From: Pseudomonadota bacterium
GTDB lineage: Bacteria; Pseudomonadota; Gammaproteobacteria; Burkholderiales; Burkholderiaceae_C
Assembly (NCBI GenBank): GCA_021847345.1
Contig: JAJZTW010000001.1
Location: 124,001-188,000 of the forward strand
Direction of reading: 5' to 3'
DNA: 64,000 bases
The notes under the pieces were generated by a model that had not been told where the DNA came from, did no database searches, and was given only the letters and a program-made list of their open reading frames with translations. The position numbers and the translations under genes were made by a program. Within the stretch, counting starts at the first letter, position 1; the number at the start of each line of letters is the position of its first letter. Positions 11,166 through 64,000 of the stretch are shown in pieces.

Positions 11166-11717
11166 GGCTCGCCCTTTTCAATTGCAAGACAACATCTTCG
11201 GTCCGCACCCGCGCGACACGGCGCGCGAACCTCTTCCAGCACCCGCGGCAATGACGGGATCCGATCCGCGGGACGGCTCCGGTCGGCTGGCTGCCCGACA
11301 TCGGTCGGGCCCATGGCCCACCGGTCCCGCGCAGTCCGCACCGCGTCCCTACCGGCTGCGAGGTATGGACAACCCGCCGCATCCGGGTACACTGGCTCGC
11401 CTCGGCCTTCCGCATGTCCTGCGCGCAGGACATTCGATTGGTCCGAAGCCATCGGCGGACCGCGCCTGCCAGCGGTTGCGTTCACGACACCATTTCGGTA
11501 CCGCTACGCTACCGCGGGCCACAAACCGCAGCCCCGCCGGAGCTCGTGTCGGCATCGGACCCTCGGGAAACCGCCACGACCTGGAGCTATCGGGCACACC
11601 CACCAGCGGCGTGCCTGGACCAGGCTTTGGCGGCGCCAGCTCCGGCAAAGCTCTCAGCTCTGTCAAAGCTCTCAACTCCCTCGGGCGCACTCAGTAATTG
11701 TAACCCGAAACGTCGCA
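11166..11717. other. 552-bp stretch without a recognisable gene
   Basis: The gap lies downstream of gltX and upstream of the 87-residue gene, both on the minus strand. All six frames give only composition-driven Arg/Pro/Ala-rich readings. I find no tRNA, RNase P, SRP or tmRNA signature. Two local structures stand out: a perfect 20-bp palindrome at 11414-11433 (ATGTCCTGCGCGCAGGACAT), and a direct repeat CAAAGCTCTCA at 11646-11656 and 11664-11674 (18-bp period) just past the gltX stop. It may carry a long untranslated region, a decayed gene or an unannotated RNA. Confidence 0.5.
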
Positions 11718-53896: not shown

Positions 53897-55561
<1,665 letters not shown>

Positions 55562-61191: not shown

Positions 61192-63087
61192 TCAGCGTGC
61201 CGGCTTGCGCCGCGGCGGCGCGGCGGATGGGCGCGCGCCGGACGGGCGTGCGGCGGGCCTGCGCGCCGGCGCGTCGCCGCGCCGCGGCGGCGTCGCGTCC
61301 TGCTCGGCAGGCGTCAGGTGCAGGGGTCGCCCCAGCACGCGCAGGCGCTGCAGCATGCGCAGCACGTCGCGCGGCAGGTCTGCCGGCAGTTCCACCAGGC
61401 TGTAGCTGCCGCGGATGGCGATGTTGCCGATTCGCCGGTTGTCCAGCCCGGTCTCGTTGGCGATGGCGCCCACCAGGTGCCGCACCTCGACTCCGTGCTC
61501 GCGGCCGATGTCGACGCGGTAGGTCTGCAGCGCGGCGGGAGTGGCCCGGGCACGCGAGTGTTCCAGATCGGCAAAGGCCCGTTCGGCGATCTGCTCCAGG
61601 CTGCGATGCGCGGTGGGCGCGTCGCGCTGCGCGGGCTCCGACCGCGGCTCGCGCGGGGTTCGCGCTGCGCGCTCCGGCCTCTCGAAGCGTTCCGCCCGCT
61701 CGGCGCGCGCTGCCGGCGCCGCGCCGGGCTCGAGCAGCAAGGGCTTGCCGCCTTGCAGCAGGCTGGCCAGCGCGGCGGCGATCTCCTGCGCCGGCACGTC
61801 ATGCTCACGCTCGTAGCGCTCGACCAGCTCGACGAACGGGCGCAGCGCCTCCTGCTGCTCGCGCGCCTCGCTGATGCGCTCGAAAAAGCGCGCGGTGCGT
61901 CGGTCGTTGACGGCCTCCACGCTGGGCAGCTGCATGGCCTCGATGCGCTGGCGCGTGGCACGCTCGATGGCCTGCAGCAGGTAGCGCTCGCGCGGGGTGA
62001 CGAAAAGAATGGCCTCGCCACTGCGCCCGGCACGGCCCGTGCGCCCGATGCGGTGCACATAGGCTTCGGTATCGGTGGGAATGTCGTAGTTGACCACGTG
62101 GCTGATGCGGTCCACGTCGAGTCCGCGCGCCGCCACGTCGGTGGCCACCAGGATGTCTACCGCTCCGTCCTTCAGGCGCTGCACCGTGCGTTCGCGTTGC
62201 GACTGCTGGATGTCGCCGTTGAGCGCCGCGGTCGAGAAACCGCGCGCGGCCAGCTTCTCGGCCAGTTCCTCGGTCGCCAGCTTGGTGCGCGCGAACACGA
62301 TCATCGCGTCGAAGGACTCGACCTCGAGAATGCGCGTGAGTGCGTCGAGCTTGTGCATGCCGCTGACCATCCAGTAGCGCTGGTGAACGCCGCTGGCGGT
62401 GCGCGTCGGGGACTTGATGGTGATCTGCGCCGGCTCGCGCAGGTGCCGCTGCGCGATGCTGCGGATGGCAGCCGGCATGGTGGCGGAGAACAACGCCACC
62501 TGGCGCTGCGGCGGCGTGCTGGCGAGGATGCGTTCGACATCGTCGACGAAACCCATGCGCAGCATCTCGTCGGCCTCGTCGAGCACCAGCTGGCGCAACG
62601 CGTCGAGCTTGAGCGTGCCGCGCTCCAGGTGATCGATCACTCGCCCCGGCGTGCCGACCACGACGTGCACGCCACGGCGCAGCGCCGCCAGTTGCGGGGT
62701 GTAGCTCTGGCCGCCGTACACCGGCAGCACGTGAAAACCCGGCAGGTGCGAGGCGTAGCGCGAAAGTGCCTCGGCGACCTGGATGGCCAACTCACGCGTG
62801 GGCGCCAGCACCAGGGCCTGGGTATCGCGGCTCGACACGTCGACGCGCGCCAGGATGGGCAGCGCGAAGGCCGCCGTCTTGCCGGTACCGGTCTGCGCCT
62901 GGCCGAGCACGTCGCGTCCCTCGAGCAGCGGCGGGATGGTCGCCGCCTGGATCGGCGACGGCGTCTCGTAGCCGACGTCGCGCAAGGCCTGCAGCAAGGC
63001 AGCGGGAAGACCCAGGTCGGCAAAGCTGCGCTCGGCGGGTGGCGTCTGGTCGTCGGGCAAGGAAGGGGGGGTATCGGCAGAAGACAT
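61192..63087 (-). CDS. DEAD-box ATP-dependent RNA helicase (DeaD/CsdA-like)
   Basis: A 631-residue RNA helicase. The Q-motif F...GLPAALLQALRDVGYETPSPIQ, Walker A AQTGTGKTA, motif II DEAD (LVLDEADEML), motif III SAT and motif VI HRIGRTGRAGRSG are intact. A C-terminal DbpA-like RNA-binding domain is at about 530-605 (YRVDIGREHGVEVRHLVGAI to GSYSLVELP), then a basic Arg/Pro/Ala tail. Such proteins remodel ribosomal and mRNA structure, often in the cold. ATG 63087 (MSSADTPPS) is preferred to an upstream start whose 52 residues look non-coding. The gene is read before the Gate-domain gene, 16 bp apart. Confidence 0.94.
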   Translation of the reverse strand: MSSADTPPSLPDDQTPPAERSFADLGLPAALLQALRDVGYETPSPIQAATIPPLLEGRDVLGQAQTGTGKTAAFALPILARVDVSSRDTQALVLAPTRELAIQVAEALSRYASHLPGFHVLPVYGGQSYTPQLAALRRGVHVVVGTPGRVIDHLERGTLKLDALRQLVLDEADEMLRMGFVDDVERILASTPPQRQVALFSATMPAAIRSIAQRHLREPAQITIKSPTRTASGVHQRYWMVSGMHKLDALTRILEVESFDAMIVFARTKLATEELAEKLAARGFSTAALNGDIQQSQRERTVQRLKDGAVDILVATDVAARGLDVDRISHVVNYDIPTDTEAYVHRIGRTGRAGRSGEAILFVTPRERYLLQAIERATRQRIEAMQLPSVEAVNDRRTARFFERISEAREQQEALRPFVELVERYEREHDVPAQEIAAALASLLQGGKPLLLEPGAAPAARAERAERFERPERAARTPREPRSEPAQRDAPTAHRSLEQIAERAFADLEHSRARATPAALQTYRVDIGREHGVEVRHLVGAIANETGLDNRRIGNIAIRGSYSLVELPADLPRDVLRMLQRLRVLGRPLHLTPAEQDATPPRRGDAPARRPAARPSGARPSAAPPRRKPAR

Positions 63088-63177
63088 GGCTGGTTCGATC
63101 GCGACGGGCCCGGGGGCCCAGCCTGACATTGTGCGCCACGCACGCCGCGACTGGCGGCGGCGTGCGCTCCGGGGCCC

Positions 63178-63206
63178 AAAAAAAATGCCAAGCACGCGGC
63201 TTGGCC
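63178..63206 (-). terminator. Intrinsic terminator of the sigma-54 transcription unit
   Basis: On the minus strand GCCAAGC, a 5-nt loop and GCTTGGC are followed by A and then a run of nine T (plus-strand A at 63178-63186). It lies 53 bp past the stop of the 93-residue reading frame and before the helicase gene. It shows that a minus-strand transcript ends here. Confidence 0.9.
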
Positions 63207-63258
63207 AAGGGGGGATCGAGAGCCTCGCGTGCGTCGTTGGCACGCGGGCGGTGAAGGG

Positions 63259-63540
63259 TCAGTGGCGCTGCACGGCGGCCGTGGTGTCGGCGCGGGAGAC
63301 GGCCGCGGCGCCTGCATGCCGGGCGCCCGCAGACGAAGCGCCCGCCGACGCAGCCTCGGTCGACAGGGCGTCCTCGGTCGCCGGGTTGGTCGTCACACCC
63401 TGCGCTTGCAGCGTGCTCGTGGCCTCGGCCTGCGCGGCGGTCTCCGGCGGCATGCCGGCGGCCTGCGCGACGGTCCATGCGCCGCAGCAGGCGATGCATG
63501 CGGCCCATGCGCTCAGACGGTTCGGACGGACTCGGTTCAT
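63259..63540 (-). CDS. Small exported Ala/Thr-rich protein in a sigma-54 transcription unit
   Basis: A 93-residue reading frame. It has a plausible signal peptide (RLSAWAACIACCGAWTVAQAAG, two adjacent Cys, cleavage after AQA) and a mature part of about 65 residues that is disordered-looking and rich in Ala, Thr, Ser and Glu. There is no known family. ATG 63540 has no strong ribosome site. A longer reading from ATG 63609 is possible, since the predicted transcript starts near 63634. The sigma-54 promoter and terminator on either side support an expressed unit. Whether its product is this peptide or an RNA is open. Confidence 0.55.
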   Translation of the reverse strand: MNRVRPNRLSAWAACIACCGAWTVAQAAGMPPETAAQAEATSTLQAQGVTTNPATEDALSTEAASAGASSAGARHAGAAAVSRADTTAAVQRH

Positions 63541-63644
63541 GATCGACGCGTTGCCTGGATACGCAAAAGGATGCGGGATGCTCTTGGTGGCGGAGATGAA
63601 CTTCGGCATGCCGCCGACGCTGCGCCGCTCGTCCACAGCCGATA

Positions 63645-63660
63645 TGCAATGCCCGTGCCA
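63645..63660 (-). promoter_or_regulatory. Sigma-54 (RpoN) -24/-12 promoter
   Basis: Read on the minus strand: TGGCACG-GGCA-TTGCA, a full match to the RpoN consensus TGGCACG-N4-TTGCW. The GG (63659-63658) and GC (63647-63646) are correctly phased. Transcription should begin near 63634. No other exact match with correct spacing was found in the window by eye. Confidence 0.88.
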
Positions 63661-63756
63661 ACGCGCGCAACCCACTGTTTATCCTGGGTTTGTCGACGCG
63701 CATCGGCCGCGCTGGCGGCGCGGCTGGAAGCGCCGGGCCGCGGCGGCGCCCGATTC

Positions 63757-63774
63757 TGTCGCCGCGCTCCGACA
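63757..63774. promoter_or_regulatory. GlrR-type upstream activator site 1
   Basis: TGTC, ten bases, GACA. Its centre lies about 131 bp upstream of the predicted sigma-54 start. It matches the TGTC-N10-GACA pattern described for GlrR (QseF) sites before glmY in enterobacteria (from memory). Confidence 0.75.
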
Positions 63775-63819
63775 CTTTGCAGCCCCCGTGGCCAAACCCT
63801 TGTTCCAGCGAGGCTTTTT

Positions 63820-63837
63820 TGTCGCCGCATGGCGACA
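63820..63837. promoter_or_regulatory. GlrR-type upstream activator site 2
   Basis: A second TGTC-N10-GACA. The inner bases also pair (TTGTCGCC-GCAT-GGCGACAA), giving a strong dyad at 63819-63838. Its centre is 63 bp from site 1, six helical turns, so both sites face the same side of the DNA. It lies 8 bp after the glrR stop. Confidence 0.75.
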
Positions 63838-63845
63838 AGGGCAGA

Positions 63846-64000
63846 TCAGTCCGACTGCTTGAACAGCGCGGCCGACAACCCGTGCTTCTGCAGCAGGCGG
63901 TAGAACTCCGTGCGGTTGCGTTGCGCGAGCCGCGCGGCCTCGGCGACTTGCCCGGCCGTGATCTTCATCAGCTGGATCAGGTAGTCGCGCTCGAAGCGGT
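63846..64000 (-). CDS. glrR: GlrR/QseF-type sigma-54 response regulator (C-terminal end only)
   Basis: The last 51 codons of a gene that continues beyond the window. The visible end (FERDYLIQLMKITAGQVAEA, ARLAQRNRTEFYRLLQKHGL, then ALFKQSD) is the Fis-type DNA-binding domain of an NtrC-family activator. The RNRTEFYRLL helix and the FK-containing tail match GlrR/QseF specifically, not NtrC or PilR. GlrR works with sensor GlrK. The sites and the sigma-54 promoter just downstream suggest that it controls the adjacent unit. Confidence 0.85.
   Translation of the reverse strand, partial: RFERDYLIQLMKITAGQVAEAARLAQRNRTEFYRLLQKHGLSAALFKQSD

Follow-up and report, generated by a model that had tools for sequence, protein, structure and literature searches.

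What does the envelope-stress regulator GlrR switch on outside the enterobacteria, and is the unit placed beside it here a message, a small RNA or both? Most of what is known of the GlrKR (QseEF) system comes from enterobacteria and concerns glmY and rpoE. At the present locus glrR, an envelope-stress regulator gene, adjoins what the initial annotation described as a self-contained GlrR/sigma-54 switch for an undescribed small transcription unit. The window, that is, the whole stretch of 64,000 nucleotides that was analysed (G000:C89:124001-188000), comes from a draft genome of 3.66 Mb, on a contig that runs on for 15 kb. The source genome is Thiomonas-like, and Thiomonas sp. FB-6 and T. delicata DSM 16361 are among the named relatives of its GlrR. 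On the minus strand, a histidine kinase gene, a lipobox-bearing ORF, glrR, two GlrR sites, a sigma-54 element, a small ORF, a terminator and a DEAD-box RNA helicase gene follow one another; the helicase gene (61192-63087, minus strand; reading frame and family match) is a downstream neighbour outside the unit. The glrR end, both sites, the sigma-54 element and the terminator all lie where they had been placed before.

The window holds the 3' end of glrR (qseF; 63846-64000, minus strand; reading frame plus NCBIfam and Pfam matches), and the gene, which encodes 450 amino acids, extends about 1.2 kb past the window (L005 3847-5199). The top NCBIfam match of the regulator is the GlrR model NF011695, at 558.9 bits and below its equivalog cut-off of 763; this model is probably tuned to enterobacteria. 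REC, sigma-54 AAA+ and lid domains are present, together with a Fis-type HTH that reaches just 13.8 bits with HTH_8 (cut-off 22), and this architecture, with GlrR as the best-matching family, agrees with the earlier naming of a GlrR-type activator. Upstream of glrR lie the histidine kinase gene and then the lipobox-bearing ORF, which occupies the qseG position and matched no family in Pfam or NCBIfam. What appears to be the same three-gene order is described for the qseEGF loci of Pseudomonadota in PMC12691602, according to which such clusters occur in Betaproteobacteria; the subject of that report is given as the QseG-QseE complex, whereas the Thiomonas case concerns target promoters 3' of qseF.

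Two predicted GlrR sites, TGTCGCCATGCGGCGACA at 63820-63837 and TGTCGGAGCGCGGCGACA at 63757-63774 (both as read on the minus strand), are exact copies of TGTC-N10-GACA and lie 63 bp apart, as had been reported. The site pattern given in the initial annotation agrees with the QseF/GlrR consensus TGTCN10GACA given in PMC8745638. Downstream of this pair stands the -24/-12 element TGGCACGGGCATTGCA (63645-63660, minus strand), whose exact match to TGGCACG-N4-TTGCA confirms the predicted RpoN promoter element, and the spacing from the -12 position predicts a transcription start near 63634. The window has five copies of TGTC-N10-GACA where 0.72 would be expected, a number reached in 0 of 100 shuffles, and its sole close pair is the one adjoining glrR; for the sigma-54 string there is one copy, with 0.02 expected. 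Three more sites, at 916-933, 11415-11432 and 55119-55136, are single and without partner.

Conservation is a stronger test than such chance counts in the window. The C-terminal 60 amino acids of GlrR were matched in 27 of the 28 genus genomes, and beside the glrR end of all 27 loci lie two sites with GTCG/CGAC half-sites (GTCG-N8-CGAC), spaced by 63 bp in 23 loci and by 64 bp in 4, with a -24/-12 element 75-97 bp past the second site in every locus. The initial annotation had made its reading depend on both sites and the promoter being kept beside glrR in relatives, and kept they are. The one genus genome lacking a GlrR match also lacks the site pair and the 3' module described below; because this genome is 91% complete, the absence of GlrR from it is weak evidence. 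A relaxed paired-site pattern was found in 27 of the 28 genomes, and its total of 58 places does not exceed the 69 of the reversed control, so that what gives the pair its meaning is solely the constant position and the promoter that goes with it. When a single site was combined with the promoter, 21 places were obtained in 20 of the 28 genomes, 19 of them beside glrR, against none in the reversed control. The stricter string TGTCG-N8-CGACA occurs at 28 places in the whole genome under study (14 in the reversed control) and forms only two pairs within 70 bp, namely the glrR pair and a pair on contig C107. With a second paired-site promoter elsewhere in the genome, 'self-contained' was too strong a word.

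Between the predicted start near 63634 and the T-run, the unit in the window measures about 456 nt. It stands as a predicted transcription unit, to which the initial annotation's description of a merely small and undescribed one does not do justice: a 93-aa ORF had been missed, and so had a 3' end far more conserved than the rest. The ORF (63259-63540, minus strand; from the frame listing and conservation in the genus) begins with MNRVRPNRLSAWAACIACCGAWTVAQAAGMPPET and has a signal-peptide-like N-terminus, from which export of the protein may be inferred; its product matched no Pfam or NCBIfam family. Because sequence searches with it are too low in complexity to be of use, its relatives were traced by synteny. 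An open frame with the motif AAGMP is present in 21 of the 27 genus loci, 20 of which have an ATG before the signal-like start and share AAGMP(P/A)(E/D). In the other one, L108, the frame is open and contains the motif, with no ATG before the signal-like stretch; it was counted as ORF-bearing, and the count of ORF losses ignores non-ATG starts. The dN/dS values of the ORF range from 0.07 to 0.73 and are below 1 in all 14 pairs computed, which were hand-picked among close relatives; the small ORF is under purifying selection. The remaining six loci (L109, L110, L111, L112, L116 and L123) have no closed ATG frame, and their predicted RNAs are 70-144 nt long. Mapped on the GlrR tree, this ORF-loss label requires three changes, at least two of them forced by well-supported branches, and the 3' module is identical in all six loci.

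This module, which resembles a small RNA (sRNA), consists of three parts on the minus strand. A hairpin at 63222-63249, with the core CGCGTGC-N7-GCACGCG at 63226-63246, is predicted by folding; it is followed by the unpaired C-rich stretch UCCCCCCUU (63207-63215), our proposed sRNA seed, of which CCCCCCTT is identical in 27/27 loci; and the unit closes with the hairpin GCCAAGC-N5-GCTTGGC and a T-run (63178-63205, the hairpin itself spanning 63187-63205), the terminator already recognized in the initial annotation. The stem sequence of this terminator is invariant in 27/27 loci and its loop is variable. All 27 genus units end in CCCCCCTTGGCCAAGC-N4/5-GCTTGGC-N-TTTTTTT (at least seven T), and the 30 invariant columns of the 91-column genus alignment lie in this end without exception, none being upstream of it. 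The pattern of hairpin plus T-run occurs exactly once in each of 27 of the 28 genomes, on the same contig and beside the glrR place, with no occurrence in the reversed control; because there is one copy per genome, the hairpin is not among the terminators that the genus uses routinely, and the idea that the module is a dispersed terminator or an uptake-type repeat was ruled out on the same ground.

The fold predicted for the window has a hairpin on either side of the C-rich stretch, which itself stays unpaired (z -3.55 for the last 73 nt, 63178-63250). Support for the upstream hairpin over the 27 loci is modest (mean z -1.4, with 18 of 27 below -1 and 5 below -2); individual folds of the other genus loci predict differently sequenced hairpins upstream of the C-stretch, likewise with modest support, and the short RNA of L109 folds less clearly (z -1.76). 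RNAalifold found no covariation in the module because the module does not vary, and the upstream hairpin does not align, so that no covariation could be demonstrated for it. A conserved stretch predicted to be unpaired and a terminator that is independent of the coding frame, both of which are expected of a trans-acting sRNA, are found together in the module.

We consider it probable that the unit yields a GlrR/sigma-54-driven dual RNA, at once the mRNA of a small exported protein and an sRNA with a C-rich seed. An envelope signal would act through GlrK to give phosphorylated GlrR, which would bind the two sites and activate sigma-54 polymerase at the promoter, with transcription starting near 63634. 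The RNA of about 456 nt would be translated into the 93-aa exported protein, and its 3' end, composed of the hairpin, the single-stranded UCCCCCCUU and the terminator hairpin, would serve as the sRNA module and, perhaps once processed to a short form, would base-pair in trans with ribosome-binding sites rich in G. Since such sites are complementary to the C-rich seed, repression of translation would be the simplest mode of action. The RNA end would be the constant output within the genus, because several sister species lose the protein frame and keep only a predicted short RNA; comparing these natural variants, which lack the frame, with the other species could tell apart what the RNA and the protein each do. 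In the Thiomonas module we have a candidate sRNA common to 27 genomes, one per species.

Could the unit instead be only the mRNA of a small exported protein, with an ordinary terminator as its 3' hairpin, retained by chance or because it is strong? In favour of this reading, the ORF is under purifying selection, the hairpin is a good intrinsic terminator, and C-rich stretches precede terminators behind ordinary genes elsewhere in the order. However, any paired stem would terminate, whereas the letters of this stem are invariant in 27/27 loci; the invariance reaches into the unpaired CCCCCCTT, six of the 27 loci retain the module without a closed ATG frame, and the hairpin with its T-run is found once per genome. 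We therefore regard an mRNA without an RNA function as unlikely. The invariance might also belong to the helicase gene, with the module acting as its leader or attenuator, and the helicase coding sequence is indeed reached within about 240 nt of the module in 15 of the 27 loci, the window included, and 0.8-1.9 kb further on in six more (L121, L122, L123, L126, L127 and L132; distances read from the loci or from more extended versions of these contigs). In the other six, however, the helicase is absent from the sequence stretch examined, and the module is unchanged in all 12 loci in which the helicase is not next; where ORFs were listed for these loci, long opposite-strand ORFs mostly adjoin the module. 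We rejected the helicase leader on these 12 loci and hold it to be very improbable. As the module is kept where the helicase is not adjacent (12/27) and where the ORF is lost (6/27), it follows the GlrR unit rather than either of them.

The third alternative, which places the module in the Betaproteobacteria toxic sRNA family RF02278 (bdhR1/S17) as a diverged member, takes up a likeness in form: in both, a C/U-rich, anti-Shine-Dalgarno-like single strand precedes an intrinsic terminator, and the long form of S17 has, according to PMC11722255, a small ORF upstream and a processed 3' sRNA, much as the Thiomonas unit has its ORF upstream. Matches to RF02278 fall on the module in five genus genomes, and eight loci (L124-L131) have the box TGTCTCCTCC in common. 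The best of these matches, at 24.6 bits, nevertheless stays far under the gathering score of 50 bits, by which the module was excluded from the family; sub-threshold matches also occur in 6 of 14 control genomes, the module lacks the family's first hairpin and lies behind a GlrR/sigma-54 promoter, and all 28 genus genomes already have an above-cut-off copy elsewhere. Membership is accordingly improbable in our view. The true RF02278 copy of the genome studied here lies at G000:C13:23713-23776 (L275; 70.7 bits).

Further Rfam matches on the module were sub-threshold only (ncr1241 and SorX). SorX (RF02784) is an sRNA cut from an mRNA 3' end, and it resembles the module in its C-rich stretch and terminator hairpin, but the module scores 17.5-20.3 bits against a cut-off of 46.6, and its processing is hypothetical. 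The Rfam scan of the window gave only a tRNA above the gathering threshold and no GlmY up to E 10 in 63150-63700, in line with the initial annotation, which saw no sequence relation to glmY. The wiring is nevertheless familiar: in E. coli, QseF drives glmY and rpoE (PMC6075780), and the Enterobacteriaceae circuit shares with ours a GlrR-type activator, TGTCN10GACA sites, a sigma-54 promoter and an adjacent small transcript, here a predicted one, with the lipobox-bearing ORF in the position of qseG. In contrast, the output lies here 3' of glrR and glmY lies 5' of the kinase gene, and the Thiomonas output holds a protein frame and an unrelated C-rich module. The unit is thus wired like glmY and shaped like S17/bdhR1, and belongs to neither; we file it as a variant of the GlrR/sigma-54/small-RNA circuit, outside the known RNA families. 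The listed titles and abstract openings from the open-licence literature searched contain no description of these outputs.

The shape of the module has look-alikes. A search of 399 genomes of the order with model R1 matched 76 genomes at E <= 0.01, the copy of the unit itself scoring 67.9 bits and the next best 39. Among 13 other R1 loci viewed, the pattern caught a stretch in 11, of which 9 resemble the R1 match (L250 and L251 differ); in none of them is a sigma-54 element accompanied by a pair of GlrR sites, and several follow an apparently ordinary gene. The R1 loci viewed were treated as unrelated C-rich terminators. At L245 and L253-L257, behind other genes of other Burkholderiales, a C- or CT-rich stretch with TTGGCC lies directly before an intrinsic terminator, and such TTGGCC/C-rich ends may represent a broader class of 3' ends. 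Because ends of this kind precede the terminators of ordinary genes, the form of the module is not unique to the unit; its invariance within the genus is striking despite this.

A scan of the 28 genomes for possible targets, with CAAGGGGGG-N2..12-ATG, found 78 places against 13 with the reversed pattern, a difference to be read with G-rich ribosome-binding sites being expected before ATG in any case, and at least two of the places (G007:C127 and G019:C236) are the module's own antisense. No target gene recurring across the genus was seen among the 30 of these 78 loci that were read. In three related genomes (L292, L293 and L303), CAAGGGGGGCTTTTCATG, which is complementary to the invariant C-rich stretch, stands before a gene that we take to be YbjQ-like.

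Is the switch confined to this genus? We examined 56 loci of other Betaproteobacteria (L050-L105), drawn, after L026-L049, from the best 80 of at least 500 confirmed GlrR matches, with L049 serving as an outgroup outside this count, and required a GlrR site with at most one mismatch and a sigma-54 element 60-150 bp further on, in a zone from 60 bp before to 700 bp after the glrR end. Site and promoter lie beside glrR in 52 of the 56 loci, compared with 1/56 for the reverse complement, 0/50 for a window further upstream and a mean of 0.05/56 over 20 dinucleotide shuffles; a pair of sites 60-70 bp apart is present in 38/56, and in none of the shuffles. Lineages differ in the gene that comes first after the promoter (opgG, opgH-like, BON, EF-hand). 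Among 50 first-gene proteins scanned, MdoG (OpgG) was matched by 24, glycosyltransferase family 2, presumably OpgH by its appearance, by 7, BON by 11 and EF-hand by 8, the L050 protein matching both BON and EF-hand; one, by elimination L068, gave no match. Alignment A1 consists of these 50 out of 57 picked frames; because picking the longest frame went wrong at loci with two units, it omits the first unit at L052, L055, L063, L079 and L099, also the second one at L063, and at L089 the second frame. With the promoter layout kept and the first gene varying, the switch is therefore constant, and what varies is its output, for the most part among proteins that are exported or belong to the envelope. 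The earlier expectation of a similar circuit with a different output holds in outline, but the circuit is not local: it recurs across Betaproteobacteria with changing outputs.

We tentatively propose, as an idea that may well need revision, that in Betaproteobacteria GlrR acts as a constant switch whose output slot, directly 3' of glrR, can be refilled, and where it would drive, at the same place, envelope genes such as opgG/opgH and those for BON, EF-hand, DUF1328 and small exported proteins; in Thiomonas the slot would be filled by a dual-function RNA, and its invariant anti-Shine-Dalgarno sRNA end would be the conserved output that persists when the protein is lost, paralleling GlmY without being related to it in sequence. 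The conserved, position-fixed promoter would offer a direct readout of GlrKR control in Betaproteobacteria, including that of osmoregulated periplasmic glucans.

Some variants of the layout deserve mention. The Thiobacillus-type loci L050, L052, L055, L063, L079 and L099 have two tandem sigma-54 elements behind glrR, with a DUF1328-like protein first (assigned by Pfam on one sequence only) and then an EF-hand or BON protein; at L050, the first tandem promoter is without a GlrR site at up to one mismatch. The outgroup L049 has the site pair, the promoter and a small exported-looking protein with AAAGLP, and its similarity to the RNA module is limited to the hairpin (17.5 bits), with neither C-run nor T-run.

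Paired sites are also found away from glrR within Thiomonas. The second pair of the genome (G000:C107:35922-36131; L169 2923-3132) has its sites 68 bp apart, followed by TGGCACGGGCCTTGCA and a 63-aa ORF (MTTNSRPGR...), just 3' of a gene that we take to be pyrE. Paired sites with a sigma-54-like element before a small gene beside pyrE recur in other genus genomes, and T. delicata (L215) has a BON-domain protein at the equivalent place. A third class of paired-site units (L217, L218 and L219-L223) precedes a small exported-looking protein (MTASRK...SPMIANAA...HH). In all, 31 secondary places were taken (L199-L229), the C107 pair among them, and some, such as L227, are probably chance pairs inside genes. 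As far as sequence can tell, these units support a putative GlrR regulon in Thiomonas that consists of small envelope proteins. At G012:C8:236223-236342 (L170), again away from glrR, a site pair with one half-site mismatch and a sigma-54 element stand before a secreted-looking small protein.
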